From the NCBI RefSeq assembly GCF_000429645.1, contig NZ_AUCG01000020.1:62001-126000 (forward strand): a DNA stretch of 64,000 nucleotides. The letters run 5' to 3'. Under the pieces are notes generated by a model. It ran no database searches. It had not been told where the DNA came from and was given only the letters and a program-made list of their open reading frames with translations. The stretch comes from Niveispirillum irakense DSM 11586. GTDB taxonomy: Bacteria > Pseudomonadota > Alphaproteobacteria > Azospirillales > Azospirillaceae. Of this stretch, positions 8,897 through 50,991 are shown in pieces. Both the position numbers and the translations under genes were made by a program. Numbering within the stretch: position 1 is the stretch's first letter; each line of letters opens with the position of its first letter.

Positions 8897-8992
8897 GGGA
8901 TCGACGCTGGAAATGGGTTGGGGTTTGAGTCTTGTCTCAAACCCCTCAACAAGTCAATGAATGCTTGGCTTTCGGCCCTTTTTGCCTGTTCA

Positions 8993-9129
8993 TGTGCCGG
9001 ATTGCACGGGTTTGCGAGAATGGGAAACGGTCTTTATGTGCCGGATATCACGGGTGCTGGTGCCTGTGTGACGTCACACAGCAGGGGTTTGCGTTCCCAT
9101 TCACCCCTGTCTATGTGCCAGATTTCATG
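8993..9129 (+). repeat. Second iteron cluster upstream of parA (three copies)
   Basis: Copies at 8993-9008 (TGTGCCGGATTGCACG), 9037-9052 (TGTGCCGGATATCACG) and 9114-9129 (TGTGCCAGATTTCATG) match the word of the main array. They lie in the 385-base gap between parA and the aminotransferase gene and have the same orientation as the main array. They could titrate Rep, handcuff to the oriV array, or let Rep influence parAB transcription. Apart from these and the palindrome at 9064-9081 I see nothing else in this gap. Confidence 0.8.
9064..9081. promoter_or_regulatory. parS: Candidate parS site / parAB operator
   Basis: This is a perfect 18-bp palindrome (CTGTGTGACGTCACACAG), identical to the core of the palindrome inside parB. 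It sits between the second and third iterons of the parA-upstream cluster, about 170 bases from the parA start. It may be a centromere site, a ParA-HTH operator, or both. Confidence 0.6.
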
Positions 9130-9281
9130 GGTCCACCGCATCGGCTGATGCGGGGGTGCAAGACTGCCTGTTCCTGTCGCATCCCCTATTAAGATCAGCC
9201 GTTTCGGCTGCAGGTCCCCGCCATCCTTGAGAGAGGCAAGCCGCCCCAAAGCGCGGTGGAAATCTTAGGGAGACGCACGTT

Positions 9282-10505
9282 ATGGACATGCAGATGAACC
9301 TTTCCGCCGAAGCCATTTCCGTTGAACAGCGCTGGTGCGCCCATAATTACAAGCCGCTGCCGGTCGTGATCGACCGTGCCGAGGGCGTCTGGATGTGGGA
9401 CGTGGAGGGCACGCGCTATCTGGATATGATGAGCGCCTATTCCGCCGTCAATCTGGGGCACGGCCATCCCCGCATCCTGCGCGCCATGATCGAGCAGGCG
9501 AGCCGGGTGGCTGTCATCTCCCGCGCCTTTCATAGCGAGAAGCTGGGGCCGTTCCTGCGGCGCCTGTGCGCCTTGTCCGGCCTGGATGGCGCCTGCCCGA
9601 TGAATACGGGTGCCGAGGCGGTGGAAACCGCCATCAAGGCCGCCCGCCGCTGGGGTTACAAGGTGAAGGGCATCCCGGCCGATCAGGCGGAAATCCTGGT
9701 CGCGGAGGGCAATTTCCATGGCCGCACCTCCACGATTGTCGGCTTCTCCAGCGAGGCGGCCTATCGCGACGGGTTTGGCCCCTTTGCTCCCGGCTTCCGC
9801 ATCATCCCCTATGGTGACGCCGATGCAATGGAGGCGGCCATTGGCCCCAACACGGCGGCCATCCTGGTGGAACCGATCCAGGGTGAGGCCGGTATCGTTG
9901 TGCCGCCGGAGGGCTATCTGCGCCGCCTGCGCGAGATTTGCGACCGGCGCAACGTGCTGCTGATCCTGGATGAGATCCAGTCCGGTCTGGGCCGCACCGG
10001 TAAATGGTTTGCCTTCCAGCATGAAGGGATCGTCCCGGACGGGCTGTGCCTGGGCAAGGCCCTGGGTGGCGGTGTGATGCCGGTATCAGCCTTTGTGGCG
10101 CGGCAGGATTTGATCGACATGTTCGTGCCCGGCAATCATGGCAGCACATTTGGCGGCAATCCGCTGGCCGCCGCCGTGGGGCTGGAGGCGCTGGAAACGC
10201 TGGACGAGGAAGGTCTGGTGGCCCGATCGGCGGAACTGGGCGACCATATGATGCGTCGCCTGTCCGCCATCGACAGCCCCGCCATCCGGGCTGTGCGCGG
10301 TCGTGGCCTGTGGGTGGGGGTGGAGATTGATCCCGCTTTCGCCACGGCGCGTGCCGTCTGCGAGGCGCTGATGCAGCGCGGCGTGCTGTCCAAAGAGACG
10401 CATGACACGGTAATCCGCTTCGCCCCGCCGCTGGTGATCAGCCGGGAAGAACTGGACTGGGCCATCGACCGGTTCGCCGAAACCCTGGCCGCCATGCGCG
10501 CCTGA
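9282..10505 (+). CDS. rocD: Ornithine aminotransferase (class III, PLP-dependent)
   Basis: It converts ornithine and 2-oxoglutarate to glutamate-semialdehyde and glutamate. The 407-residue length and the segments AHNYKPLPVVIDRAEGVWMWD, MNTGAEAVETAIK, GNFHGRT, EPIQGEAGI and ILDEIQSGLGRTGK are those of ornithine aminotransferase rather than acetylornithine aminotransferase. The Schiff-base lysine is Lys259 in CLGKALGGG. AGGGAGA about 10 bases before the ATG is the ribosome site. The gene is followed 38 bases later by arginase and then an Lrp-type regulator, giving an arginine-to-glutamate catabolic unit. Confidence 0.93.
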   Translation: MDMQMNLSAEAISVEQRWCAHNYKPLPVVIDRAEGVWMWDVEGTRYLDMMSAYSAVNLGHGHPRILRAMIEQASRVAVISRAFHSEKLGPFLRRLCALSGLDGACPMNTGAEAVETAIKAARRWGYKVKGIPADQAEILVAEGNFHGRTSTIVGFSSEAAYRDGFGPFAPGFRIIPYGDADAMEAAIGPNTAAILVEPIQGEAGIVVPPEGYLRRLREICDRRNVLLILDEIQSGLGRTGKWFAFQHEGIVPDGLCLGKALGGGVMPVSAFVARQDLIDMFVPGNHGSTFGGNPLAAAVGLEALETLDEEGLVARSAELGDHMMRRLSAIDSPAIRAVRGRGLWVGVEIDPAFATARAVCEALMQRGVLSKETHDTVIRFAPPLVISREELDWAIDRFAETLAAMRA

Positions 10506-36016: not shown

Positions 36017-37381
36017 ATGCGGGCATTGGGACTTGGCGGCAAGATCGGCTATGGCATCGGCGATTTCGGCCTGAACCTTTATTGGCAGTCGATCCTGCTT
36101 TTCATCGTCTTTTTCCATGTCGACATGCTGGGCCTGTCGGCATGGGAGGCGGGGATCTGCTTCTTCATCGTCGGGGTCTGGGACGCGATCATGGACCCGC
36201 TGGTCGGCATGCTGTCCGACCGGGCGCGGGGGCGGCTGTTCGACCGCATGGGGCGTTACCGCCCTTTTATCCTGCTGGGGGCGGTGCCGCTGGGGCTGGC
36301 CTTCACCTTCTGTTTTTACCCGCCATCCTGGCTGTCACCCGGTACCAGCGGCATGCTGGCCTTCGCGCTGATCTCGCACATGCTGTTGCGCAGCGCGTAT
36401 AGCGTGGTGGGCATCCCCTATTCCTCCCTGACGGCGGCGATCACCCGCGATGCCGATGAACGGGCCAGCCTGACCGGCTGGCGCATGTTGTTCGCCTTTT
36501 CCGGTGCCATGACCGTATCCGCCATGCTGCCCCTGCTGGCGGAATATTTCGCGGCGGGCGGCGGTGGCAATGGCTATGGCCCGGCGGCCGCCATCACGGC
36601 GGCGACCGCCACCCTGGCGCTGCTGGCCTGCGGGGCGGCGGTGCGGGAACGGGGCCGGGGGCTGGCCGGGGGGGATAGTGCCCCACCGCCGCTGGCGGGC
36701 TTTTTCCCTGCGGTGATGCGCAACGGGCCGTTGCTGCGCGTCATGGCGGCGACGGTCCTGGTTCATGTCAGCCTGGGCCTTTTGATGCGCAACCTGCCCT
36801 ATCTGTTCAAATATGATCTGGGGAATGCCAGCCTGTCGGGCATCGCCTTGCCCTGGCTGACGGCGGCGGGCGTGGTCAGCGTGCCGGCATGGGTGGCGCT
36901 GGCGAAATGGCGCAGCAAAAGGGATTGCTGGCTGATCGGCAGCGCCATGACAGCAGTGGGGTGCCTGGGCCTGCCCCTGCTGCACGGGCTTTGGCCGACA
37001 CTGGTCTGCCTGACCATCATCTTCATCGGCCATACCGCCCATGCGGTGGCTGGATGGTCCATGCTGCCGGATGCGGTGGATTTCGGGGAATGGCGCTGCC
37101 GCCGCCGGGACGAGGCCAAGATCTATGGCGGCGCATCCTGCATGACGAAGCTCGCGGTCGGCGCGTCTGGCATTGTCAGCGGCTGGGCGCTGGCCCTGGT
37201 CGGCTTCATGCCCAATGTGGAACAGGCGGCTGAAACGGTGGAAGGATTCCGCCTGCTGGCGGGGTTGCTGCCCAGCCTGGGCATGCTGGCATCCATGGTG
37301 GTGATCTGGGGTTATCCGCTGGATGCCGCCCGCCACCGCCGCATCCGGACCTTTCTGGGCCGCCGTCAGCCGGCCTTATAA
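36017..37381 (+). CDS. MFS sugar transporter, GPH cation-symporter type
   Basis: The 454-residue, twelve-helix permease has the GPH family features GYGIGDFGLNLYWQSILLFIVFFHVD and GVWDAIMDPLVGMLSDRARGRLFDRMGRYRPFILLGAVPLG near the N terminus. Such proteins import disaccharides, oligosaccharides or uronides with H+ or Na+. It follows the amylase gene after 269 bases, so it probably takes up the products across the inner membrane. I chose the ATG at 36017 over a TTG at 36005. Its last 6 bases overlap the convergent cNMP-binding gene. Confidence 0.9.
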   Translation: MRALGLGGKIGYGIGDFGLNLYWQSILLFIVFFHVDMLGLSAWEAGICFFIVGVWDAIMDPLVGMLSDRARGRLFDRMGRYRPFILLGAVPLGLAFTFCFYPPSWLSPGTSGMLAFALISHMLLRSAYSVVGIPYSSLTAAITRDADERASLTGWRMLFAFSGAMTVSAMLPLLAEYFAAGGGGNGYGPAAAITAATATLALLACGAAVRERGRGLAGGDSAPPPLAGFFPAVMRNGPLLRVMAATVLVHVSLGLLMRNLPYLFKYDLGNASLSGIALPWLTAAGVVSVPAWVALAKWRSKRDCWLIGSAMTAVGCLGLPLLHGLWPTLVCLTIIFIGHTAHAVAGWSMLPDAVDFGEWRCRRRDEAKIYGGASCMTKLAVGASGIVSGWALALVGFMPNVEQAAETVEGFRLLAGLLPSLGMLASMVVIWGYPLDAARHRRIRTFLGRRQPAL

Positions 37382-38122
37382 TCCCCGCTCGATCCGGTTG
37401 ATATAGCAGGTGACAAGCTGGCGGATGATGGTAGGGGCGGCGCGCAGCAATTCCTCAAACCGGGTGCGGGGGATCATCTCGCAGACGGTGGCCTCAATGG
37501 CGGTGACGCTGGCGGCGCGGGTGGTGTTGCGCAGCAAAGCCATCTCCCCGAACACCCCGCCCGGTCCCACCTCTGCCAGGGGCAACGCATCCTGGCTTCG
37601 GTCATCATCGCCCGGCAAATCCCGCCAGACCTGCACCCGACCGCTCTGCACCAGATAGGCGCCATGCGCCTCGTCCCCCCGGCGGAAAATGGTGCGACCT
37701 TCGGCGAAGATATCCCGGCGCAGCAGCTTGAAGGTCCGTTCCGACACGATGGGCTCGCCAGCGAAGATCGGGTCGCCCGCCACTGCCGGAATGCCATGGA
37801 GGGACCGCAAGGTGCGGATCAGGGAATGCAGCACATAGCGCACCAGCGGCGGGCTGGCCCGCAATTGCCGCACCAGCAGGTCACGCGACACGATGATCAG
37901 GCGCGTCGGCTCCATCGTCGCGATGCAGGCGGCGCGCGGCGCATTGTCGATCAACCCCATCTCACCGGCGAAATCCCCCGGCCCCAGCACGGCCAGCCGG
38001 TGCTTGGTCCCGTCGATGGCGCGGAACACCTCCACCCGACCGGCCACCACCAGAAAGGCATCGCCGCAGCGATCCCCCTCCTTCAGCAGCAATTTGCCGG
38101 CTTCAACCGCGATCTCTTCCAC
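37376..38122 (-). CDS. Protein with two tandem cyclic-nucleotide-binding domains, no HTH
   Basis: The 248-residue protein consists of two cNMP-binding (Crp-type) domains and little else. The first has GDFAGEMGLIDNAPRAACIATM, the second VFGEMALLRNTTRAASVTAIE; both keep the Gly-Glu and Arg of a phosphate-binding cassette. There is no DNA-binding domain or enzyme domain, so it is likely a cyclic-nucleotide-responsive partner protein. The start is a GTG at 38122. It is divergent from the TpsB gene across an AT-rich 225-base region, and a single-domain relative lies at the far end of that locus (50530). Confidence 0.88.
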   Translation of the reverse strand: MEEIAVEAGKLLLKEGDRCGDAFLVVAGRVEVFRAIDGTKHRLAVLGPGDFAGEMGLIDNAPRAACIATMEPTRLIIVSRDLLVRQLRASPPLVRYVLHSLIRTLRSLHGIPAVAGDPIFAGEPIVSERTFKLLRRDIFAEGRTIFRRGDEAHGAYLVQSGRVQVWRDLPGDDDRSQDALPLAEVGPGGVFGEMALLRNTTRAASVTAIEATVCEMIPRTRFEELLRAAPTIIRQLVTCYINRIERGL

Positions 38123-38347: not shown

Positions 38348-40036
38348 ATGATGCGCTCTGCCTTTCCCGCCCTGTTGTCCATATCGGTGCTGGCAGCGAC
38401 CGGGGCTACGGCGCAGACAGCGCCATCGGTACAGCTTCCGGGTTCGGTGGAGCCGGGGCGCCCCACGGTGCCGGCCCCGCTGGAAGAACAACGCCGCGCA
38501 CCCAAGGCGCAACTGCAATTTTCCATCCCCACCCAGCGCAAAGGGGCGGCCCCTGCCGCCGGTGCCGATCTGCGCTTCCCCCTGAAGCGCATCGCGGTGG
38601 AGGGGGCGAGTGTGTTTGACCCCGCTACCCTGTTTGCCGACAAGATTGCGGAACTGACCAGCCGGCCGGTGACCCTGGCGGAAGTGGCGGCCTTGGCCGA
38701 TGCCATTCAGGCCCGTTACCTGGCGCTGGGGCTGGGCCTGACCCGCGCCTTTGTCCCGGCGCAGGAGATCAAGGATGGCAGCATCACCATCCGGGTGATC
38801 GAAGGCCATCTGGCGCGGGTGCGGGTGGAAGGCGGCGGTGCGGGGGATCGCGAACGGGTGGAAGGCCGGCTGGCCGATGCGCTGGCGGCCCGCCCGGCCC
38901 AGGTGGGGTTGATCGAACGTGGCCTGCTGCTGGTCGATGATCTGCCTGGCGTTACCGTGACCGGCCTGATCCGGCCGGGGGATGAATTTGGTGCTGCCGA
39001 ATTGCTGGTGGGTCTGGACAGGGCGCCCTATGCAATGGTGGCGGGTGTGGGCAATCGCGGATCGGATTTCGCCGGCCCCTGGTCCGGCTTTGTCGATCTG
39101 GCAGCCAATGGCTTTCTCGGCTGGGGGGAGCAGATTGGTGTTACCCTGTCTGCCACGCCGGAGGTGGATGAGCAACGCTCCGCCAATCTGCGCTGGCAGC
39201 AGCCTTTGGCCGCGTCCGGCCTGTCGCTGACCAGTACCGGCAATTACAGCCGGGGCCGGCCGGGGGCGGCGTTGAAACCCTTTGCCGTGGCGACGGAAAG
39301 CGTCGGCGTCGGCCAGCGCCTGTCCTGGCCCGTTATCCGCAGCCGCGCCCGCAACCTGACGCTGGAGGCGGGCTGGAACCTGCAGCATGCCACGGTGGAA
39401 ATCCTCAACGCGCCCTTCAGCCGGGATGACTGGCGCACCCTGGATGTGCGGGCGACCTATAGCGGTCAGCACATAGCCGGCGGCGACCTGTTCGCCACGG
39501 CCGGCATCACGCGCGGGCTGGGCATCCTGGGGGCGACGGGCAAGGGATCGCTGGAAGGGTCGCGGCCGGGCACCGATGCCGATTTTACCAAGCTCAGCGG
39601 CGAGATCGGGTATGGCCTGCGCCTGCCGGCAGGGCTGGGCGCGACGCTGACGCTTGCCGGCCAATACAGCCCGGATGTGCTGCCGGCGGGGGAGGAATTC
39701 GCGCTGGGCGGTACCCGGTTTGGCCGGGGCTATAATGGCGGTGACCTGTCCGGCCCCAAGGCTATTGGCGGCGGGCTGGAACTGCGGCGCGGTTTTGACC
39801 CCGGCCTGCCCTTCGTTGATGCCATGGTGCCTTATGCTTTCCTGGATAGCGGGCGGGTATGGGACAGTATCGCCGCTGATACGCATCTACTCTCCGCGGG
39901 CGGCGGCTTGCGGATGGGAATTGCCAGCAAGGCCAGCCTGACGATGGAAGTGGCGCGCACCCTGCGTGCCCTGCCCATCCCCGGCGCCGACCGGCGGCGT
40001 ACCCGTCTTTTCGTTGATTTGACGGTGCAGCTATGA
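38348..40036 (+). CDS. Two-partner secretion transporter TpsB (ShlB/FhaC family)
   Basis: This outer-membrane Omp85-type barrel of 562 residues exports the TpsA protein encoded next. It has a signal peptide (FPALLSISVLAATGATAQ), a proline-rich linker, a POTRA domain (FPLKRIAVEGASVFDPATL to SITIRVIEGHLARV), a second POTRA-like region and a 16-strand barrel. Barrel landmarks are the conserved LGGTRFGRGYNGGDLSG and the final VDLTVQL. The ATG at 38348 precedes the signal peptide; the frame is open to 38294. Its stop overlaps the TpsA start by 4 bp (40033-40036). Confidence 0.92.
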   Translation: MMRSAFPALLSISVLAATGATAQTAPSVQLPGSVEPGRPTVPAPLEEQRRAPKAQLQFSIPTQRKGAAPAAGADLRFPLKRIAVEGASVFDPATLFADKIAELTSRPVTLAEVAALADAIQARYLALGLGLTRAFVPAQEIKDGSITIRVIEGHLARVRVEGGGAGDRERVEGRLADALAARPAQVGLIERGLLLVDDLPGVTVTGLIRPGDEFGAAELLVGLDRAPYAMVAGVGNRGSDFAGPWSGFVDLAANGFLGWGEQIGVTLSATPEVDEQRSANLRWQQPLAASGLSLTSTGNYSRGRPGAALKPFAVATESVGVGQRLSWPVIRSRARNLTLEAGWNLQHATVEILNAPFSRDDWRTLDVRATYSGQHIAGGDLFATAGITRGLGILGATGKGSLEGSRPGTDADFTKLSGEIGYGLRLPAGLGATLTLAGQYSPDVLPAGEEFALGGTRFGRGYNGGDLSGPKAIGGGLELRRGFDPGLPFVDAMVPYAFLDSGRVWDSIAADTHLLSAGGGLRMGIASKASLTMEVARTLRALPIPGADRRRTRLFVDLTVQL

Positions 40037-43000
40037 CGGCACGGCGTCGGCATCGGTGGGTGCGGGCGGCCGCGCTGGCCAGTGTCTTCTGCTTGCCCGT
40101 CCTGCCCGCCCTGGCGGGTCCGGAGGGGGGCAGCGTCACCAGTGGTCAGGCCGCCATCAGCCAGACCGCCCCCGGCCAGACCCTGATCCGGCAGGGCAGC
40201 GACCGGGCGCTGATCGACTGGCGGTCTTTTTCCATCGGGGCCGGCGAAAGCGTGACGGTGCAGCAGCCGGGCAGCCAGTCGCTGCTGGTTAACCGGGTTG
40301 GCCCCGGCGGCACAGGCACCCGCATTGATGGATCGCTGACCGCCAATGGACAGGTGGTGGTGATCGACCGTGCCGGCATCGTGATCGGCCAGGGCGCGCG
40401 GATTGATGCCGGTTCCTTCCTGGCGACCACGGCGACCTTGTCCGATGCGGATTTTGCGGCCGGGCGGCTGGTTTTCTCCGGCGCGGCGGCGGGGGCCGCC
40501 ATTCTGAATGAAGGCCATATCAGCGTGGCCGATGGTGGCTATGTCGCGCTGGCGGCGGCCTCCGTGGAAAATCGCGGTCTGGTGGAGGCGCGGCTGGGCC
40601 GGGTGGTACTGGCCGGCACCGACAGCTTCACCTTGGACCTGCATGGTGACGGGCTGCTGCGCTTCGAACTGCCGGCGGAACTGGCGGCCAGCGTGGCCAA
40701 TAGCGGCACGATCCGCGCCCAGGGCGGGTCCGTGCTGGTCACGGCCCGGGCGGCGGCAGGGGCAGTCGCCAGCATCAATATGGGCGGTCTGGTGGAAGCG
40801 CGCGGGGTGGAACAGCGCGACGGTCGTATCTTCATCGGCGGGGAAGGGGCGGCTGTGGCCGTGACCGGCACCCTGGATGCCGGCGCGGATGCGGGTCGGG
40901 GTGGCACCATCGCCCTTTCCGGTGACAGCGTCACCCTGACCGGGGCGACTGTGGCGGCCAGTGGCGCGACCGGTGGCGGCAGCGTCCAGGTCGGCGGGGT
41001 TGCGGGCACGGCGGATGAGCTGGCCCCCACCCGGACGGTCCAGATCGACGCACAAAGCCAGATCCGCGCCGATGCCACGGCCAGCGGCAGCGGCGGCACT
41101 GTCAGCATCCGTTCCGATGGCCAGACCAGCGTTGCCGGCGTCGTTTCCGCCAAGGGGGGCGCTGGTGGCTTTGGCGGAACGGCGACGATTATCGGCAAAG
41201 GCGGGCTGGATATTGCCGGCATGATCGACCTGTCGGCCCCGTCCGGGCTTGCGGGCACCCTGCTGCTGGAAGCGCCGTCCATCGTGATTGGTAATGGCGG
41301 TGGCAGCCTTGCTGCCGCCAGTCTGCAGGCGCTGCTGAACAGCGGCACCAGCGTCGTGATGACGGCGACGCAGGATATCAGCCTTGCTGCTGATATCACC
41401 AAATCGACCGGCGGCGCTGCCAGCCTGATCCTGCGGGCCGGGCGCGATATCACCCTGGCGCAAGGGGTGGATATTACCAGCACCAGCAATGCGTTGACCA
41501 TCGACCTGCGCGCCGGCTTTCCCATCGGGGGCAGCCTGTACGGGGCCGGCGGTCGGGTTGTTCTGGCGGGGGCCAACCGGCTATGGACCCAAGGCGGGGC
41601 TGTGCGCCTGACTGGCAGCGCGACTGCCGGGGCCAATGCCATCAGTGCCGAGGCCGCCGATATCCGCACGGGGGGTGGTGCCATTGACCTGCTGGCGACA
41701 ACACCCAATCCCGCAACATGGATCGGGTCCATCAATCTGACCGGGGCCGGCACCTATCAGGCCGGGGGTGGGAACATCACCATCACCGCCGATTATATTG
41801 ACCTGGCGAGCAACCAGTTTTCCACCACCGGGCGGGTCTGGCTCAGCCAGGGATCATCCAACCGCACCTTGCGGGTCGATGCTTCCGGCACCGATGACAA
41901 TGCCGCCCTGTCGCTGGCGGTTGCCGATTTTGGCAATATCAGTGCCGGCACCTTGCGGCTGGGGGCTGCGACGGGGGGCAACCTGCTGATTGCCGCCACC
42001 CTGGCACCTGCCAATGCTGGGCTGTTGGAGTTGATGGCCGGCAATGGCGGGCAGGTGACACAGGCTGCCGGTGCCAGCGCGATCACAGCCTCTAAACTGG
42101 CTTTGCTGGGGGCTGGCGGCACCTTTACGCTGAACAATAGCGGCAATCAGATCGGCACGCTGGCCGCCGATACAGGGGCTATCTCGCTCACCAATCAAGG
42201 GGTGTTGACCATCGGTACGGTCGGCACCGTCAGTGGTGTGCGCTTCAGTGATGCCGCGTCCTTCACCACAGGCGTTGCGGAAGGGGGACTGGGGGTCGAT
42301 ATCCAGTCCACAATCGCCTATACCGGCGGCGGCTGGGGCAATGCCTGGCTGACGATATCGACGGCGGGTGATATCCGCCTGGCCTCGGGCGGCCATATCA
42401 GCGGCCCCAATGTGGCGCTGAATGGCGGCACGGTCACGCTTGCCGCCGGTTCCACCATCAGCGGCGGCAGTTCCCTTATTGTGAATACGGGTACGCTGAC
42501 CCTGGCCGGCACGATCAGCACCAGCAGCCTGGAAATCGCTGACCGGGAGGGGCGCGGCCTGACCTTGGGGGCCAAGGTTGGCGACCGGTTGAGCCTGGAT
42601 GCGGCGGAGATCGGGCGCATCAGCGCCTTTTCCACCTATTTCCGGACATCGGGCGCTCTGCGGCTGGAAGGCGGCCTGGACCTGTCGCGCTTCTATACCA
42701 CGACCATGCGCGGCGGATCGGTGACGGTGGCACCGGCTGCCGCGATCAAGGCACCGCTCTGGCTGACCCTGCAGACCGATATTCTGGACCTGTCAGGCAC
42801 AGTGGAAACCCAGTCCTCGGGGCGGATCACCCTTTCCACCCTGGGCAATGGTCGTGGTATCACGCTGGGCGGCGCGGATGACGGCCAATTGCATCTGGGC
42901 ACGGCGGAACTGGCCAATATCCTGGGCGCCGGCGTGCTTTACTTTGAGGCCAGCGGCGCCATCACCGTCAAGGAGGGTTTGAACCTCGCCACCAAAGGCG

Positions 43001-46000
43001 CGGTTTACCTCAATAGCGGCGGGAATATCGCCATATCAGGCCCGATCATGGCGGGGAACGAACTGGGGCTGGCTGCCGCCGGTACGATCAGCATCGACGC
43101 TGCCGGCGCCCTGACCGCCGCGCAGACTATCAGCCTGACCGCTGATCAGATGCAGATTGACGGCGCCATCCGGACCACCGGTAGCGTTACGCTTTCCACC
43201 CGCACCGCGGGCCGCGCGGTGGAACTGGCGGGGCCGGGGGTGGATAGCGGGCGGCTTAACCTCTCTGCGGCGGAACTCTGCCGGATCGAGACACCCACCC
43301 TTGCCATCTATGGCGGCGGCGCGATTGCCATCGCCGGTACCCTGGTCCGGGAAGGGGCCTTGGCCCTGACGGCTGGCGGGGCTGTCACCCAGACCGGCGC
43401 GCTCCAGACGGGCAGCCTCACCATTAACAGTGGCGGCAGCATCACCCTGGACCATGCCGGCAACCGGGTTGGTACCATCTCCCTGGCGACCGGATCGCTG
43501 GGGGACATCATCTGGCGGGACGAGGGTGGGATCCATATCGGGTCCGGCGGCATTTCCGCCGGACGTTCTGTGACTTTGCAGGCCGGACAAGCTGGTATCA
43601 CCCAGACGGGTGCCATCTATGCCAGCAATCTGGTCCTGGCCGGCGGTTCCATCACCCTGACCCATCAGGGCAACATGATCGGCACTTTGACGGCTGTGGC
43701 CGGCGCCAATCTGGATATCCATAGCAACCGCGCCCTGACCGTTACGGGGACAGGCATCAGCGCTGCCGGTAAGGTGAAGGTCACCGCCAACGGTAATATC
43801 ATTCTCAACGCTGGCGTCGCCGCAGGGGGCCAGGGCGATGCGCTAGTGCTGGCCGCGAATGGCACCTTCAGCAATCTGGCCGGCAGCAATGCCTTGTCGG
43901 TGGGGGAGGGGGCGCGGTTCCTGGTTTTCGCCTCCAGCCCGGTTGGTGGCAATACGGGCGGCGTCGCGGCCAAGCCGCTCTATAACCGCGCCTTCAATTT
44001 CGCCACGCATGATGGCGGGACGATCAACAATCAGGGCAGCCGCTTCGTCTATGCCTATGCCCCGGTCCTGACCATCACGCCGGAAGGCGGGATCCGGACC
44101 TATGATGGCACGGTTCCCAGCCTTGGCTATCAGGTGAGCGGTCTGCTGGCCGGTGACCTGCTGGCCGATGCTGTGACCGGAGCGGCGACGGTTAGTGGTG
44201 CCGGGCGCAATGTCGGTGGCTATGTCCTGTCTGCGGATATTGCCAGCCTGTCCTCCGACCTTGGTTATCGGTTCAGTGCGGGCAGCGGCTTTCTCACCAT
44301 CAATCCCAAGGCGCTGACCTATGCCATCGGGGCCGGCACCGGTACCTATGGCGCTGTCACACCCGGTTCCGTCCAGTTGGACGGCGTGGTGGAAGGCGAC
44401 AGGGTGGGGGGCGAGGTGGGCGTGCGGATTGGCGGCGTTGTTTCCAGCCTGTCGCCAAGCACCAATGTGGGCACCTATGGCCAGGCCCTTATCCGCCTGA
44501 CCGGCGAAGGGGCTGGCAATTACACAATTGCGGCCAGCGGCAACAGTGCCGGCCAACTGATCATTACGCCCAAGACGCTGACCTACAGCATCGCTAGTGC
44601 CACCGGCACCTATGGCACCGCTGCGCGGCTGGGACAGGTGACCTTGTCCGGTCTGGTGAATGGGGATGATGTTCAGGCGACCGCGGGGGTGGTCGGGGCG
44701 ACAGTAAACGACCGTCTGGCGGCGGGCACCTATAGCCAGTCCGTTTCCGGCCTGACGGGCAGCCGTGCGAGCAATTACACCCTTGCGGCCACGGGCAATA
44801 GTGCTGGTTCCCTGGTGATTGCGCCCAAGACCCTGACCTACAGCATCGGCCATGCCGGCAGCGTCTATGGCACGCTCGCCACATTGGGGGATATCCGGCT
44901 CAATGGCGTGCTGGAAGGGGATGCCGTGGCGGGTATGGCGGCCCTGTCCAACGGTGCATTGCTGACGGAGCGCCTTGCGGCAGGCACTTATGGCGTGAGC
45001 GTCTCGGGCCTGACAGGGGCTGCTGCGGGCAATTACACCATCGCCGTTGCGGGCAACAGTGCCGGCAGCCTGACCGTTGCGCCCAAACCCATCACCTATG
45101 CCATTGCCGGTGCCAGTGCCACCTATGGCCAGACGCCTGTGCTGGGGGCGGCGACATTCAACGGCGTACTGGCCGGTGATCAGGTCGGCGGGATGGTTGC
45201 TCTGGCGCCCGGCACTTCCTCCGGGCGGCTGAATGTAGGCACCTACGGCCAGACCCTGGCCGGGCTCAGCGGGGCCGATGCCAACAATTACGTTCTGGCT
45301 TCAAGCGGCCATCAGGCCGGCACCCTGACCATCACGCCCGCCGCGCTGACCATCACCGCCAATGGCCAGACCCGTCTGTATGGCGATGCCGATCCCGCCC
45401 TCTCCTATCGGGTGGATGGCCTGGTTGCAGGCGATAGCGTGACCGGCGCGCTTACCCGCACGGCGGGGGAGAATGCAGGTACCTATGCCATCACCCAGGG
45501 CAGCTTGGCGGCCAGCAGCAATTACACGATCCGCTTCACGGGTGCCGATCTGGTGATCACGCCGGCCATGCTGTCGGTGACGGCGGTAGGCGGCACCAAG
45601 GTCTATGGCGATGCTGACCCATCGCTGGGCTATAGCGTCAGCGGTCTGCGGCGGGGTGATGCGGCGGGGGATGTACTGTCCGGCGGGTTGGGGCGTCAGG
45701 CGGGAGAGAATGTGGGCCGCTATGGAATCACCCAGGGCAGCCTTGTCGCGAATGGCAATTACACTGTCAGCTTTACCGGCGCCGATCTGGTGATCACGCC
45801 GGCGGTGCTGTCGGTAACGGTGGCGGGTGCCAGCAAGGTCTATGGCGATGCTGACCCGTCGCTGGGCTATAGCGTCAGCGGTCTGCGCCGGGGTGATGCG
45901 GCGGGGGATGTGCTGTCTGGCGGGTTGAGCCGTCTGGCTGGAGAGAATGCCGGCACCTATGCGATCGGCCAAGGCAGTCTTGCCGCAAATGGCAATTACA

Positions 46001-47388
46001 CTGTCAGCTTCACGGGCGCCGATCTGGTGATCACGCCGGCGATGTTGTCAGTGACGGTGGCGGGTGGCAGCAAGGTCTATGGCGATGCCGACCCGTCGCT
46101 GGGCTATAGCGTCAGCGGCTTGCGCCGGGGCGATGCGGCGGGGGATGTACTGTCTGGTGGGCTGGGCCGTGAGGCAGGTGAGAATGTGGGCCGCTACGCC
46201 ATCACCCAGGGCAGCCTTGCGGCGAATGGCAATTACACGGTCAGCTTCACCGGCGCTGATCTGGTGATTACCCCGGCGATGCTGTCGGTAACGGTGGCGG
46301 GTGCCAGCAAGGTCTATGGCGATGCCGACCCGTCGCTGGGTTACAGCGTCAGCGGCTTGCGCCGGGGCGATGTGGCGGGTGATGTGCTTTCCGGCGGGCT
46401 GGAGCGTCAGGCGGGAGAGAATGCCGGCACCTATGCGATCGGCCAAGGCAGCCTTGCGGCGAATGGCAATTATACGGTCAGCTTCACCGGCGCTGATCTG
46501 GTGATTACGCCGGCCATGCTGTCTGTGACGGCGACAGGTGTGACCAGAACCTATGGCGGCGTGGACCCGGCTCTTGCCTATGGCGTATCGGGTTTGAAGC
46601 GGGGCGATGGGGCAGCAAACGTCCTGACCGGTGCGCTGGCGCGGGCGGGTGGCGATAATGCCGGCACTTATGTGATCGTCCAGGGTAGTCTGGCGTTGAC
46701 CAGCGCCAATTATTCCCTGCAATTCCAGGAAGCGTCCTTCACCATCACGCCCGCGGCATTGACCGTGACGGTGGAGAATGCCACCCGCGCCAGCGGTGCC
46801 GCCAATCCGCCTTTCAGCGCCCGGTTTGACGGGCTGGTGAATGGCGATGATGCGACCAGCCTTTCCGGCCTGTCCTTCAGCACGACGGCGACGGCCAGCA
46901 GCCCCGCCGGCAGCTATGCCGTCCAGGCCGGCGGCATCAGCAATGGCAATTACCGCATCACCTATATTGACGGCACCCTGCTTGTCACCGGCGGTGCCGT
47001 CCTGCCCGGCGGTCTGGCGGAACTGGTGCCGGTAACGCAGTTGACGACGCCGCCCGCGACCAGCGCGCCGGTGATCGCCCCCAGCCTGTCATCGGGCGGA
47101 ATGGGCGTCGCCTCCCCTGCCGCTGCGACAGGGGGCGCCTCTGTAACGAGCCCGGCACCCACGGGGGGCGGGCTGGCTGGTTCCTCCGGCACCATCAGTT
47201 CCGACAATGCCGTGGCGGCAGCGGCGCAGGTGGTGCAATCCGCCTCCGGTGGGGCGGCTGATGATGACAGCCAGACGGAGGAGATGATCCCCGGCCTTCT
47301 GGGCCAGCAGCGCCGCCTGCCGGGCGAGGGGCCGGAAGGTACGCCGGGGCTGGAACAGCAATTCCCCAATCTGGGCAGGGTCTGGTGA
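40033..47388 (+). CDS. Filamentous haemagglutinin-type exoprotein TpsA with MBG/YDG repeats
   Basis: The 2451-residue exoprotein has a signal peptide (ALASVFCLPVLPALA) and an N-terminal TPS secretion domain (GQAAISQTAPGQTLIRQGS, SLLVNRVGPGGTGTRIDG, VVVIDRAGIVIGQGA). A long stretch of beta-helix repeats (about 250-1340) follows. Residues about 1426-1770 are four MBG-like repeats of 85-88 residues (LTYSI..TYG pattern). Residues 1846-2161 are four nearly identical 79-residue repeats with YGDADPSLGYSVSGLRRGD, followed by diverged copies. The C terminus is a low-complexity linker with an acidic patch (DDDSQTEE) and no toxin domain or anchor. A large surface adhesin or matrix protein is the best reading. 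It is coupled to the upstream TpsB gene and the downstream CHAT gene. Confidence 0.92.
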   Translation: MTARRRHRWVRAAALASVFCLPVLPALAGPEGGSVTSGQAAISQTAPGQTLIRQGSDRALIDWRSFSIGAGESVTVQQPGSQSLLVNRVGPGGTGTRIDGSLTANGQVVVIDRAGIVIGQGARIDAGSFLATTATLSDADFAAGRLVFSGAAAGAAILNEGHISVADGGYVALAAASVENRGLVEARLGRVVLAGTDSFTLDLHGDGLLRFELPAELAASVANSGTIRAQGGSVLVTARAAAGAVASINMGGLVEARGVEQRDGRIFIGGEGAAVAVTGTLDAGADAGRGGTIALSGDSVTLTGATVAASGATGGGSVQVGGVAGTADELAPTRTVQIDAQSQIRADATASGSGGTVSIRSDGQTSVAGVVSAKGGAGGFGGTATIIGKGGLDIAGMIDLSAPSGLAGTLLLEAPSIVIGNGGGSLAAASLQALLNSGTSVVMTATQDISLAADITKSTGGAASLILRAGRDITLAQGVDITSTSNALTIDLRAGFPIGGSLYGAGGRVVLAGANRLWTQGGAVRLTGSATAGANAISAEAADIRTGGGAIDLLATTPNPATWIGSINLTGAGTYQAGGGNITITADYIDLASNQFSTTGRVWLSQGSSNRTLRVDASGTDDNAALSLAVADFGNISAGTLRLGAATGGNLLIAATLAPANAGLLELMAGNGGQVTQAAGASAITASKLALLGAGGTFTLNNSGNQIGTLAADTGAISLTNQGVLTIGTVGTVSGVRFSDAASFTTGVAEGGLGVDIQSTIAYTGGGWGNAWLTISTAGDIRLASGGHISGPNVALNGGTVTLAAGSTISGGSSLIVNTGTLTLAGTISTSSLEIADREGRGLTLGAKVGDRLSLDAAEIGRISAFSTYFRTSGALRLEGGLDLSRFYTTTMRGGSVTVAPAAAIKAPLWLTLQTDILDLSGTVETQSSGRITLSTLGNGRGITLGGADDGQLHLGTAELANILGAGVLYFEASGAITVKEGLNLATKGAVYLNSGGNIAISGPIMAGNELGLAAAGTISIDAAGALTAAQTISLTADQMQIDGAIRTTGSVTLSTRTAGRAVELAGPGVDSGRLNLSAAELCRIETPTLAIYGGGAIAIAGTLVREGALALTAGGAVTQTGALQTGSLTINSGGSITLDHAGNRVGTISLATGSLGDIIWRDEGGIHIGSGGISAGRSVTLQAGQAGITQTGAIYASNLVLAGGSITLTHQGNMIGTLTAVAGANLDIHSNRALTVTGTGISAAGKVKVTANGNIILNAGVAAGGQGDALVLAANGTFSNLAGSNALSVGEGARFLVFASSPVGGNTGGVAAKPLYNRAFNFATHDGGTINNQGSRFVYAYAPVLTITPEGGIRTYDGTVPSLGYQVSGLLAGDLLADAVTGAATVSGAGRNVGGYVLSADIASLSSDLGYRFSAGSGFLTINPKALTYAIGAGTGTYGAVTPGSVQLDGVVEGDRVGGEVGVRIGGVVSSLSPSTNVGTYGQALIRLTGEGAGNYTIAASGNSAGQLIITPKTLTYSIASATGTYGTAARLGQVTLSGLVNGDDVQATAGVVGATVNDRLAAGTYSQSVSGLTGSRASNYTLAATGNSAGSLVIAPKTLTYSIGHAGSVYGTLATLGDIRLNGVLEGDAVAGMAALSNGALLTERLAAGTYGVSVSGLTGAAAGNYTIAVAGNSAGSLTVAPKPITYAIAGASATYGQTPVLGAATFNGVLAGDQVGGMVALAPGTSSGRLNVGTYGQTLAGLSGADANNYVLASSGHQAGTLTITPAALTITANGQTRLYGDADPALSYRVDGLVAGDSVTGALTRTAGENAGTYAITQGSLAASSNYTIRFTGADLVITPAMLSVTAVGGTKVYGDADPSLGYSVSGLRRGDAAGDVLSGGLGRQAGENVGRYGITQGSLVANGNYTVSFTGADLVITPAVLSVTVAGASKVYGDADPSLGYSVSGLRRGDAAGDVLSGGLSRLAGENAGTYAIGQGSLAANGNYTVSFTGADLVITPAMLSVTVAGGSKVYGDADPSLGYSVSGLRRGDAAGDVLSGGLGREAGENVGRYAITQGSLAANGNYTVSFTGADLVITPAMLSVTVAGASKVYGDADPSLGYSVSGLRRGDVAGDVLSGGLERQAGENAGTYAIGQGSLAANGNYTVSFTGADLVITPAMLSVTATGVTRTYGGVDPALAYGVSGLKRGDGAANVLTGALARAGGDNAGTYVIVQGSLALTSANYSLQFQEASFTITPAALTVTVENATRASGAANPPFSARFDGLVNGDDATSLSGLSFSTTATASSPAGSYAVQAGGISNGNYRITYIDGTLLVTGGAVLPGGLAELVPVTQLTTPPATSAPVIAPSLSSGGMGVASPAAATGGASVTSPAPTGGGLAGSSGTISSDNAVAAAAQVVQSASGGAADDDSQTEEMIPGLLGQQRRLPGEGPEGTPGLEQQFPNLGRVW
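45568..46515 (+). repeat. Four 237-bp tandem repeats in TpsA, arranged ABAB
   Basis: Units start at 45568, 45805, 46042 and 46279; every step is exactly 237 bp (79 codons). A fifth, diverged unit starts at 46516. Units 1 and 3 share GENVGRY and ITQGS; units 2 and 4 share AGASK, GENAGTY and AIGQGS. The pattern points to duplication of a two-unit, 474-bp block. The near identity makes copy number prone to change by recombination. Confidence 0.9.
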
Positions 47389-50300
47389 TGCGCATGGGCC
47401 GTCTGATCCCCCTGGCATGCTTTGCCCTGCTGGCGCTGGCGGGCTGCACCACGGGTACCGGTCCCACCGGTGGGGGCAAGACGGGTCCGGTTCCCTTCGG
47501 CACTAATGCGATTGGGGAGGAATGCCGCGCCATCCCCGCCACCCCGGCAGAGGGGGAGCAAGGGGCCTATGGCCTGTTCTGCGCCGGGTGGGAACAGGCG
47601 AGCGGCAGCATCGCCGTGACCCGCCTTTACGACCCGCTGCCGGCGGACCCGGCGGAACATGGCCGGCAATTGATGGTGGAGGCATCCCGGACGCGCTGGG
47701 CCGGCAGCCTGGCCCTGCGCGCCAATTGCCAGCCGGGCCGGATGATCGATCTGGGGGGCGAGGCCCGTGCCCTGCTGCTGAATTGCCAGTTGCGGGAGGG
47801 GGGATGGCCCTGGGTCGGCGTGTCCCTGGCCCATGGGCGGGTGCTGTACCAGGGCGATGGTATCCCGGCTGTGGCCGACCTGCTGACCGGCATGGCCGCC
47901 CGGCTGGAAGCGGGGGCCCCCGCCACCGCCCCCGATATTGCCGCCACGCTGCGCGCCGCCCTGGGCGATGCCGCGCTGCGCTTTGGCCGCGGCGACTTGA
48001 ATGATTTTGAGCGGTTGAGCGAGCTGGGCCGCCTGTCCAACAGTGTGGAGGATTATGGCGCGGCGGAGGAAGCCTATCGCCGCGCTTTGGCGATCCAGAC
48101 CGCCAGCCTGGGCGATGACAGCCCCGGTGCCGGTGACACGCTGATGGCGCTGGCGCTGGAAGTGTCCAACCAGGGCCGGGGGGAGGAGGCGGACGCCCTG
48201 TTCCGCCGCGCCGACCGGCTGCTGCAGCAATCCTTTGACAAGGCGGCGCGGGCGCGGCTTTCCAGCTACATGGCCTTCCATGCCGCCAATAGCGGGGAGG
48301 AGAAGCGCGCCCTGTCCCTGGCGCGCGAGGCCAGCGCCGTGCGCCGCGCCATCGTGAATGATCTGGATGATGCCGCCAGTGGCGGGGCCAGCCGCACCGT
48401 GCTGGGCAGCCTTGCCGCCGCGCGGGGTGACCTGATCCATTCCCTGCTGCTGGAAGCCACCGTTTCCCTGCGCCTGAAGCAATATGGGCTGGCCGATGCC
48501 GCAGCATTGGAGGCCAGCCGGCTGTATGACCGCACGCGTGGCCTGCCGCCCTGGTGGCATGCCCGCATCCTGGGCATGCAGGGTATGGCAGCGGCAGGCC
48601 GGGGCGATGTGGCCGGTGGGGCAGCGTTGCTGTCACGGGCGGTTGGGTCGAACCGGCAATTATTCGGCACTGGCTGGCCGGTGGCATCGGTGATGCTGGA
48701 ACTAGGCCGGGTATATGCCGAAGGGCGGCAGGATGCGGCGGCAGCGGCAATCTATCGCGAAGGGCTTTCCATGGTGCGGGGCCTGGATAGCGAGGCGGCC
48801 CCCCTGCCGCTGGACCGGATCATGCCCTATCTGGCGGTGCTGTCCCGGATGGCCGACGCCGACCCCAGCCAGCGCGACGCCCTGCATCGGGAAATGTTCC
48901 TGGCGGTGCAGCAGGTGCGTGAAGGGGTGGTGGGGCAGACCATCACCCGCGCCGCCAGTCGGTTCGCCAGCACCGATCCCGCCGTGTCTGACCTGATCCG
49001 CCAGCAGCAGGATGCGGTGCGGGAACGGGATCGCCTGCGGATTGAACTGGCGGCGGAAACCGCCAAACCCGATATCCAGCGCGATAAGGCGCGGGAGGCG
49101 GAACTGGCCCGCTCTCAGGAAGAGGCCGCCGGTCGCGCGCAATCCCTGGAACGCCAGCTTCAAGCCGCTTTCCCCGACTATGCGCGGTTGAGCCGGCCTG
49201 CCCCCGTGCCGGCAGAGGCGCTGCAGGCCGTGCTGGCACCAGATGAAGCGCTGGTTGCCTATGCCATCGGTACCGATGGCGGCTTCGGCTTCATCGTGCG
49301 TGCCGGTGGGGTCACCGCCTTTCCCGTGGCACTGACCCGCCAGACCCTGGCGGATCAGGTGCGTGACCTGCGCCGGGGGTTGGAGCTGCGCGGCGGGGTG
49401 CTGCCGCCTTTCGATCTGGGCTTGTCCTACGCGCTTTATCAGGCGTTGCTGGGGCCTGCTGAGACGGCGCTGGCCGGTGCTGACCGGCTGGTGATTGTGC
49501 CGTCGGGCGCCCTTTCCAGCCTGCCGCCATCGCTGCTGGTGACGGCCCCGCCGGGCAAGACGGATGATTATGCCGGTGCCGCGTGGCTGATGCGGCAGCG
49601 GGCGCTGGCCATCGTCCCCTCAATCCCGGCCTTCATGGCGCTGGCCCGTCCGGTGGCGCGGCCCGTGGCATCCAAGCCCTTCATCGGGTTTGCCGCCCCG
49701 CCCTTCCAGGGTAAGGGGGCGGGGGCTGCCAGCGGCATGGATGCGCTGGCGCAGAATTGCCGCACCGATGCGCCGCTTGACCCCGCCTTGCTGCGGGCCC
49801 TTGCCCCCTTGCCGGAGACGGCGGATGAGGTGCGGGAGGTTGGTGCCCTGCTGGGGGCCGGGCCGGGCGATGTGGTGACGGGGGCAGCGGTGACCAAGGC
49901 TGCGGTGCGGGACCGGGGGCTGGACCAGTATCGCGTCCTCTATTTCGCCACCCATGGCCTGCTGCCGGGGGAATTGCGCTGCCAGACCCAGCCGGGGCTG
50001 GCGCTGGCCCCGCCGTCGTCGCCCCCGGCCAGTGCCGCCGATGATGGGTTGCTGACGGCGGCTGATATCGCCCTGCTGCGCCTGAATGCTGATCTGGTCG
50101 TCCTGTCGGCCTGCAACACGGCCGGTGGTGGCCGGCTGGGGGGCGAGGCCTTGTCCGGTCTGGCCGAATCCTTCTTCTTTGCCGGTGCCAGGGCCATGCT
50201 GGTTACCCACTGGCAGGTGCCATCCCTGCCCACGGTGGAACTGATGACGGGCCTGTTCCGCCGCACGGCGGCGGGTGCCGGGCCGGCGGTGGCGCTGGCG

Positions 50301-50408
50301 GCATCGCAACAGATTTTGGCATCGCAGAAGGCGACAGCCCATCCCTTCAACTGGGCGGCCTTTACCCTGGTGGGGGCCGTCACCGAGGGGACATCGACCG
50401 GCAACTAA
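47388..50408 (+). CDS. CHAT-domain protease lipoprotein with TPR-like repeats
   Basis: The protein has about 1006 residues. The N terminus is a lipoprotein signal (CFALLALAGC). A middle helical region with TPR-like pairs (AAEEAYRRALAIQTASLGD, IYREGLSMVRGL) runs to about 480, then a charged coiled coil (QQQDAVRERDRLRIELAAE, REAELARSQEEAAGRAQ). The C-terminal CHAT domain is a caspase-like peptidase with the dyad His856 (YFATHGLL) and Cys909 (VLSACNTAGG), both intact. The start is the ATG at 47388, overlapping the TpsA stop as TGATG, with GGGCAGGG upstream. The coupling suggests a function on TpsA, such as processing, or on its secretion; this is inference. Confidence 0.9.
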   Translation: MRMGRLIPLACFALLALAGCTTGTGPTGGGKTGPVPFGTNAIGEECRAIPATPAEGEQGAYGLFCAGWEQASGSIAVTRLYDPLPADPAEHGRQLMVEASRTRWAGSLALRANCQPGRMIDLGGEARALLLNCQLREGGWPWVGVSLAHGRVLYQGDGIPAVADLLTGMAARLEAGAPATAPDIAATLRAALGDAALRFGRGDLNDFERLSELGRLSNSVEDYGAAEEAYRRALAIQTASLGDDSPGAGDTLMALALEVSNQGRGEEADALFRRADRLLQQSFDKAARARLSSYMAFHAANSGEEKRALSLAREASAVRRAIVNDLDDAASGGASRTVLGSLAAARGDLIHSLLLEATVSLRLKQYGLADAAALEASRLYDRTRGLPPWWHARILGMQGMAAAGRGDVAGGAALLSRAVGSNRQLFGTGWPVASVMLELGRVYAEGRQDAAAAAIYREGLSMVRGLDSEAAPLPLDRIMPYLAVLSRMADADPSQRDALHREMFLAVQQVREGVVGQTITRAASRFASTDPAVSDLIRQQQDAVRERDRLRIELAAETAKPDIQRDKAREAELARSQEEAAGRAQSLERQLQAAFPDYARLSRPAPVPAEALQAVLAPDEALVAYAIGTDGGFGFIVRAGGVTAFPVALTRQTLADQVRDLRRGLELRGGVLPPFDLGLSYALYQALLGPAETALAGADRLVIVPSGALSSLPPSLLVTAPPGKTDDYAGAAWLMRQRALAIVPSIPAFMALARPVARPVASKPFIGFAAPPFQGKGAGAASGMDALAQNCRTDAPLDPALLRALAPLPETADEVREVGALLGAGPGDVVTGAAVTKAAVRDRGLDQYRVLYFATHGLLPGELRCQTQPGLALAPPSSPPASAADDGLLTAADIALLRLNADLVVLSACNTAGGGRLGGEALSGLAESFFFAGARAMLVTHWQVPSLPTVELMTGLFRRTAAGAGPAVALAASQQILASQKATAHPFNWAAFTLVGAVTEGTSTGN

Positions 50409-50529
50409 AAGGGGAGTTTGTGCCGGCAGGGCGGGGTTTCCGCCACGGCATTGACAAGGGACTTGCAAAGCCTGCCCGCCGGGGGGCACACATCAAGGGT
50501 TGATATGACGTGGAAGGGGCCTTGCGCCG

Positions 50530-50991
50530 ATGGTTGGGATTCTGAACCGGAAATTCGTCGCCGCAGGCAAGCAGGTTTTCGCCACCGGTGACCGGGGCGA
50601 CCAGATGTATCTGGTCCAGTCCGGCTGCATCCGCCTGTGGCGAGGGGATGCCGAACATCCGGTCGTGCTGGCCGAAATCGGCCCCAACTGCCTGTTCGGG
50701 GAAATGGCCCTGATTGATGAGGGCACACGCTCAGCCTCGGCCACGGCGATGGAGGATACGATCCTCATCATCATTTCCGGAGAGAAGGTACGCCAGCGGC
50801 TGGCAGAGGCCGATCCCTTCGTTGCTTCGATCGTGCGCATCCTGGCCCGCAACCTGCGCGCCTCCAACGGGCAGATGGAAGATATGATGGATCAGATGCT
50901 GGCCCTGGGCGCGGTGAAAACCCGTGAGATTGCGGCCAACGCGGATGTGGCCGTGCTTGCCGCCGAAGAGGATATGGCCGGCGACCGGTGA
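50530..50991 (+). CDS. Single cyclic-nucleotide-binding domain protein, no HTH
   Basis: The 153-residue protein is one cNMP-binding domain (QVFATGDRGDQMYLVQSGCIRLW, CLFGEMALIDEGTRSASATAME, with Glu and Arg of the cassette) followed by a helical tail (VASIVRILARNLRASNGQMEDMMDQMLALG). There is no DNA-binding domain. It resembles each half of the two-domain protein at 37376. It lies 121 bases after the CHAT gene on the same strand and may be the last gene of the secretion operon. It could sense cAMP, cGMP or be a degenerate scaffold. Confidence 0.88.
   Translation: MVGILNRKFVAAGKQVFATGDRGDQMYLVQSGCIRLWRGDAEHPVVLAEIGPNCLFGEMALIDEGTRSASATAMEDTILIIISGEKVRQRLAEADPFVASIVRILARNLRASNGQMEDMMDQMLALGAVKTREIAANADVAVLAAEEDMAGDR

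Follow-up and report, generated by a model that had tools for sequence, protein, structure and literature searches.

Two-partner secretion (TPS) is usually described as having two components, an exoprotein (TpsA) and its outer-membrane translocator (TpsB). What, then, is the role of a third gene, encoding a CHAT-domain protease with an export signal, that lies directly behind tpsB and tpsA in Niveispirillum irakense DSM 11586? We analyzed the surrounding 64,000 bp (C4:62001-126000 of a genome totaling 5.45 Mb), here called the window, together with related loci in other bacteria. The CHAT protein belongs to a subfamily that is very probably dedicated to TPS. This subfamily has a diagnostic N-terminal domain and, in many members, sits beside a TpsA with what appears to be a matching substrate tail. 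Our tentative answer, held with slightly less than even confidence, is that CHAT acts as a third TPS partner in the envelope, where it binds the TpsA tail and, as a protease, probably cuts it.

Four consecutive genes lie on the forward strand of the window. The first, tpsB (38348..40036), has a frame open from 38294 with its first ATG at 38348, and its product matched Pfam POTRA_2 (E = 8e-15) and ShlB (E = 3e-22). The second, tpsA (40033..47388), encodes a 2451-aa exoprotein with a Pfam TPS domain at residues 30 to 276 (E = 4e-26), eight MBG_2 matches, and a match to NCBIfam adhes_NPXG (E = 1e-15). The POTRA domain and ShlB/FhaC barrel of TpsB and the N-terminal TPS domain of TpsA are those expected of a type Vb system. 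The third gene, chat (47385..50408), starts at GTG 47385 or ATG 47388 and encodes a tetratricopeptide repeat (TPR)-CHAT lipoprotein with an export signal (Pfam CHAT, PF12770, E = 1e-55). The last (50530..50991) encodes a single-domain, 153-aa cyclic nucleotide monophosphate (cNMP)-binding protein (Pfam cNMP_binding, E = 1e-18), and in relatives a similar gene closes the full cluster. The first three frames, at 580, 2451, and 1007 aa, and their family scores lie far beyond chance. The original prediction had read this row as TpsB, TpsA, a CHAT lipoprotein, and a cNMP protein, and the Pfam families confirmed all four genes; the lipobox, LAGC, is present at 47436..47447 (by eye and by a simple pattern test). 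It had also described the first three genes as overlapping by 1 to 4 bp, which was correct: tpsB and tpsA overlap by 4 bp, and the overlap of tpsA with chat is 4 bp if chat starts at the GTG and 1 bp if it starts at the ATG, while the cNMP gene stands apart, 121 bp downstream of chat. Among relatives, 27 of 43 TpsA-CHAT junctions had a 4-bp overlap when the in-frame start closest to the TpsA stop was taken.

Is this arrangement a chance neighborhood or a conserved one? Plasmid and family loci were added to a genome-contig scan, from which the best 80 of 547 relatives were kept, giving 126 CHAT hits in all, of which 108 remained after removal of 2 duplicates and 16 short or partial sequences (among them L139, L140, and L142, which lie by TPS genes, and L117, which is decayed). 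A CHAT was called linked if a TPS domain or TpsB lay within 10 kb or if its upstream frame matched TpsAs, and unlinked where the sequence reached 4.5 kb or more upstream and 2 kb or more downstream. This labeled 54 CHATs as TPS linked, 27 as unlinked, 7 as having a giant upstream frame, and 20 as unknown. In a quick maximum-likelihood tree, which has some long branches and whose sample was picked largely by likeness to the window protein, a single change separated the 54 linked from the 27 unlinked CHATs. Treating the unknown and giant rows as other raised the number of changes needed by the linked label to 15, compared with a mean of 36.4 when labels were shuffled.

Surveys of whole genomes set the limits of this association. 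CHAT was found in 33 and TPS in 44 of 59 genomes of the family, and in 27 and 26, respectively, of 114 genomes of the class. Same-strand CHAT-TPS pairs no more than 12 kb apart numbered 5 in the class survey, the window included, where 0.09 were expected. Among 20 class-survey CHAT loci, however, only 5 had a TPS domain or TpsB and 2 had a giant upstream frame; the other 13 had neither, and the tie to TPS therefore belongs to the subfamily and not to CHAT proteins generally. An N-terminal domain profile built from 32 rows, run on 397 Pseudomonadota genomes at E <= 1e-5, gave nine hits in at least eight genomes, all in CHAT genes, together with two marginal ones (G247 and G326, E of about 8e-4, each with a stop); the figure of eight genomes is a lower bound because at most 10 candidates were scored per genome. 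Two hits in G000 and one in G092 were known loci. The remaining six all lay in loci with CHAT, TpsB, and either TpsA or a giant frame, and five of these were new, L242 being a repeat of L077. The original prediction had envisaged a caspase-like protease that is exported to serve a single giant exoprotein, and had asked whether CHAT is found equally often without TpsA. Within the subfamily it is not, as both the tree and the N-domain loci indicate, and there comparison supports the idea; for CHAT at large, it does not. The locus is more specific than it was first read to be, and it is conserved.

Some loci outside this pattern deserve mention. Two CHAT matches in G451 (C4:1100426-1102191 and C1:1256723-1258290) lie about 120 bp or less from a TPS domain and gave no N-domain hit; they represent a different CHAT-TPS arrangement. 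Contigs titled as Klebsiella pneumoniae and Akkermansia muciniphila metagenome-assembled genomes (L025 and L030) carry the cluster, and their labels may be wrong. We did not accept the CHATs of cyanobacterial plasmids as members, since the four loci had no annotated TPS gene, in annotation rich in hypothetical proteins.

Within Niveispirillum, CHAT was present in 10 of 11 genomes, and TpsA sequence lay beside 14 of 17 CHAT matches (by eye). The remainder comprised L149, cut by a contig end, and L110 and L113, which lack TpsA. One of the 14, L117, is a decayed remnant (8446-10433) that retains short pieces of TpsB, TpsA, and CHAT in order, in a genome that also carries the full cluster L100. 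The window genome itself has two CHAT matches and five TPS domains. Its other CHAT, on C14, begins 4 bp before the end of a frame that is cut by the contig end and matches known TpsAs. Contig C7 ends within a TpsA, with TpsB, a small secreted protein, and a CHASE2 match divergent from it; this second TPS cluster holds the only CHASE2 match in the genome. The C7 and C14 contig ends may belong together. The best match in the plasmid collection was a CHAT of Niveispirillum cyanobacteriorum, 68% identical over 95%. The phage collection had no match to the CHAT protein, and we therefore rejected a phage origin for it.

If the subfamily serves TPS, what kind of protein is it? The original prediction had named His856 and Cys909 as an intact dyad. 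The numbering, which starts at ATG 47388, was right, and the predicted catalytic codons lie at 49953..49955 and 50112..50114. His was found in 108 of 108 relatives and Cys in 107 of 108, and both were retained in all 54 TPS-linked CHATs. The N-terminal domain (47490..47900) is typical of TPS-linked CHATs and is marked by four cysteines, Cys46, Cys65, Cys114, and Cys133, which were found in 49 to 50 of the 54 linked and all 7 giant-linked CHATs but in only 2 to 3 of the 27 unlinked ones, and were invariant in the 32 rows chosen for the profile. Two further cysteines, Cys791 (46 of 54) and Cys865 (52 of 54), were conserved in linked CHATs; in unlinked CHATs, none of the states listed, for 23 and 25 of the 27, respectively, was Cys. 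Six conserved noncatalytic cysteines would fit disulfides and an oxidizing compartment. The N-terminal domain of the window CHAT, searched alone, had no match in Pfam and no sequence match in the PDB. TPRs were detected by two Pfam models that barely passed the cutoff, and a TPR solenoid does precede the CHAT domain; by sequence, the nearest TPRs in the PDB were those of kinesin light chain. A structure model of the window CHAT, built from 28 aligned sequences, had a mean predicted local distance difference test score of 85.4. It predicts a beta-rich region (residues 35 to 160), a helical solenoid to about 600, and a CHAT domain to 1000. The model's top structural matches, with good coverage for residues 135 to 1003 only, were Csx29/TPR-CHAT and separase, and the predicted protease domain also resembled gingipain RgpB.

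PorU, a clan-CD enzyme of type IX secretion, takes off a C-terminal signal and attaches the exoprotein to a surface carrier, and CHAT could in principle do the same for TpsA. We regard this as very unlikely: many linked CHATs have a signal-like stretch without a lipobox (by the pattern test), and no carrier is known.

Where would such a protease find its substrate? The last 35 residues of the window TpsA (47281..47385), ending in NLGRVW, are our proposed CHAT recognition site. We compared the tails of 50 CHAT-linked TpsAs, 7 of them giant frames without a detected TPS domain, with those of 34 unlinked TpsAs from the family (6 of 40 unlinked family loci, L173, L174, L176, L183, L188, and L193, were omitted because they were open or masked or seemed out of frame). 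Trp occurred within the last 30 residues in 28 of 50 linked but only 3 of 34 unlinked tails, and the terminal residue was aromatic in 33 and 3, respectively. A strict GNExLW-like pattern was present in 15 linked and no unlinked tails, and a broader W-type pattern (GNExLW-like or G..W) in 31 linked and again none of the unlinked. In Niveispirillum, 12 of 13 CHAT-linked tails had G..W at the extreme end, and the 13th (L107) had GNEDLW further in. A second signature, an N-x-C Cys pair in the last 150 residues, was found in 30 of 50 linked and 0 of 34 unlinked tails, and 49 of 50 linked tails had one signature or the other. At internal positions of linked TpsAs, either pattern appeared in 16 of 1,760 draws. 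Nine linked loci (L200, L202 to L206, L213, L244, and L247, with giant frames but no TPS hit at L206 and L213) were obtained once the W pattern had been fixed; 6 had the W pattern, 7 the N-x-C pair, and all 9 at least one. Both patterns were absent from 20 later unlinked tails of the class, 16 of which were judged complete (L237 and L240 were open, and L225 and L235 apparently out of frame).

Several observations weigh against the idea that CHAT binds and cuts these tails. The W-type pattern was drafted with the first 50 tails already seen; many of those tails are close kin, so that simple p-values come out too small. Our looser first pattern was far less specific (31 of 50 linked versus 10 of 34 unlinked). 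Of the first 50 linked tails, 19 lack the W pattern, as do 3 of the later 9, and L034 has neither signature. The N-x-C pattern was written with the ends of L202 to L206 and all of L213 already in view, which leaves the W count as the sole clean held-out test. A Cys pair as such, within 45 residues of the end, is no marker of CHAT, since it occurred in 0 of 50 linked but 5 of 34 unlinked tails. In the window TpsA itself, the last 150 residues contain no N-x-C pair and the last 45 no Cys. Another CHAT clade (L139, L140, and L142) also adjoins TPS genes, and its TpsA ends were seen to have no W tail. Finally, the match to kinesin light chain may reflect just a common type of TPR. The 19 linked tails without the W pattern would suit a mere operon neighborhood, in which CHAT has some other envelope substrate and is only coexpressed with TpsA. 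We consider this quite unlikely, because the W tail is absent from both sets of unlinked TpsAs and is kept at L200, where CHAT and the cyclase precede tpsA.

Our favored reading, CHAT as a third partner, would work as follows. TpsB would export TpsA, and CHAT would reach the envelope as a lipoprotein whose Cys-rich N-domain and TPR solenoid are followed by a protease domain of the caspase/separase type. The TpsA C terminus probably remains in the periplasm, as has been suggested for HMW1; with that end inside, a TPR-CHAT protein bearing an export signal could hold and cut it. CHAT would capture the short tail (NLGRVW in the window, GNExLW-like in many relatives) and cut nearby, and cleavage would decide whether the exoprotein is tethered or released, in the manner of LapG acting on LapA. 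That CHAT cuts the tail is itself a proposal to which we give a little under an even chance. It may instead be a dedicated envelope anchor or chaperone whose TPRs hold the tail, while the protease acts only on itself or on damaged chains. The tail signature speaks for an anchor as well, as does the N-terminal domain, which marks the linked set no less than the dyad does. The dyad is nevertheless intact in every TPS-linked CHAT, beyond what an anchor needs, and we think this alternative unlikely.

What, finally, does the cNMP-binding protein contribute? The original prediction had suggested that a nucleotide-binding partner might gate CHAT. Direct gating was rejected, since CHAT has a signal peptide and the cNMP protein does not; in relatives, moreover, the latter follows a CHASE2-cyclase. 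Its phosphate-binding cassette resembles (by eye) that of CRP, and with no signal peptide it most likely acts inside the cell, probably as a cytoplasmic effector. The full cluster runs TpsB, TpsA, CHAT, small secreted protein, CHASE2-cyclase, cNMP protein, and was found in L013 (with a second copy, L154), L100, L152, and L155. Because the cNMP protein comes after the CHASE2-cyclase in these four full Niveispirillum clusters, it reads as a signaling output. L146 and L147 have no cyclase beside CHAT, and the window cluster lacks both the cyclase and the small secreted protein. Among 10 other Niveispirillum genomes, the 9 with CHAT have one or two CHASE2 matches, in some cases on a different contig from CHAT, and the 1 without CHAT has none. 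The L013 cyclase combines CHASE2 and Guanylate_cyc domains and is predicted to make cyclic AMP (cAMP). A second cNMP gene in the window (37376-38122, reverse strand), upstream of and divergent from tpsB, encodes a 248-aa protein with two cNMP_binding stretches, and L153 likewise has a divergent cNMP gene beyond tpsB. The small secreted family (L013 14872-15552 and relatives) consists of proteins of about 230 aa with two invariant cysteines in 14 aligned members, and adjoins both CHASE2 cyclases and TPS-linked CHATs. Three members searched had no Pfam match, and a model of the L022 protein gave only weak structural matches.

In the full version of the system, the CHASE2-cyclase and the small secreted protein would sense the state of the envelope, and a cyclic nucleotide, probably cAMP, would carry the signal to the cNMP-binding protein. 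It is possible, if doubtful, that this envelope system is widespread and has gone unnamed, with a periplasmic TPR-CHAT protease that reads and cuts a W-acidic C-terminal signal on its own TpsA while the CHASE2-cyclase and small secreted protein use a cyclic nucleotide to tell the cell the state of the surface filament; proteolytic release and outside-in signaling would then be built into TPS. The same parts could make up a surface-sensing or defense device, with TpsA as antenna, CHAT as executioner, and the CHASE2 cyclase as alarm. TPR-CHAT serves in Craspase, and full clusters carry both the cyclase and a cNMP effector. In phage-selected Nostoc strains, the mutated genes are reported to include a TpsA-type gene and, in a double-mutation strain, a CHAT gene (PMC10811720). 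The export signal on CHAT argues against such a device. CHAT and TpsA had no match in PADLOC at E <= 0.01, on which ground we rejected a defense island, and the cNMP protein matched Pycsar-type PADLOC models via its cNMP domain only. We judge this explanation improbable.

If our favored reading of CHAT as a third partner is true, TPS gains a dedicated caspase-like protease, often accompanied by a cyclase, and a substrate that bears a recognition tail. Holding or cutting of the tail would be an unrecognized control of adhesion or release, and retention versus release of giant TpsA proteins in the Proteobacteria that carry the cluster becomes testable. The reading also proposes, for a CHAT subfamily that belongs to neither CRISPR nor heterocyst biology, a natural substrate and the signal by which it is recognized.

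How does this arrangement compare with known systems? Our literature search, which left subscription journals largely outside, did not find "CHAT domain" together with "two-partner secretion" or with "CHASE2"; in one paper, CHAT, TPR, caspase, and filamentous hemagglutinin co-occur in separate places. DdvA, listed among the nearest systems, differs in being a transmembrane anti-sigma factor. The best structural match is Csx29 of Craspase (type III-E CRISPR), in which, as here, a TPR solenoid precedes a CHAT domain with a His-Cys dyad. Csx29 works in an RNA-guided complex, however, whereas the window CHAT has an export signal, a four-Cys N-domain, and an exoprotein partner. Kinesin light chain, the nearest relative of the TPRs by sequence, binds W-acidic (SKIP) and C-terminal Y-acidic (JIP1) peptides (PMC6214655). 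Linked TpsA tails often have an acidic residue near Trp, and GNEDLWD-like tails resemble these ligands, a likeness that is suggestive only; most W-pattern tails are less acidic. The kinesin ligands are eukaryotic cargo, whereas here the proposed ligand is a TpsA tail. HMW1A/HMW1B/HMW1C likewise comprises a TpsA, a TpsB, and a dedicated helper gene, and the C terminus of HMW1 holds the protein to the cell. The tether is formed by the last 20 residues, with a Cys pair, at an end inaccessible from outside (PMC3983070). The HMW1 helper is a glycosyltransferase and not a TPR-CHAT protease with an export signal, and the window TpsA has a W tail and lacks the N-x-C pair looked for as the mark of an HMW1-type tether. 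The nearest working analogy is LapG-LapA-LapD, in which a periplasmic cysteine protease cuts the retained end of a giant adhesin and a second-messenger protein takes part (PMC3032545). The likeness is one of proposed logic. The window CHAT has no LapG domain, matching only CHAT and TPR families in Pfam at E <= 0.001. LapG has an N-terminal target and works with a cyclic di-GMP receptor, whereas the system proposed here would combine two-partner secretion, a C-terminal target, and a CHASE2-cyclase.
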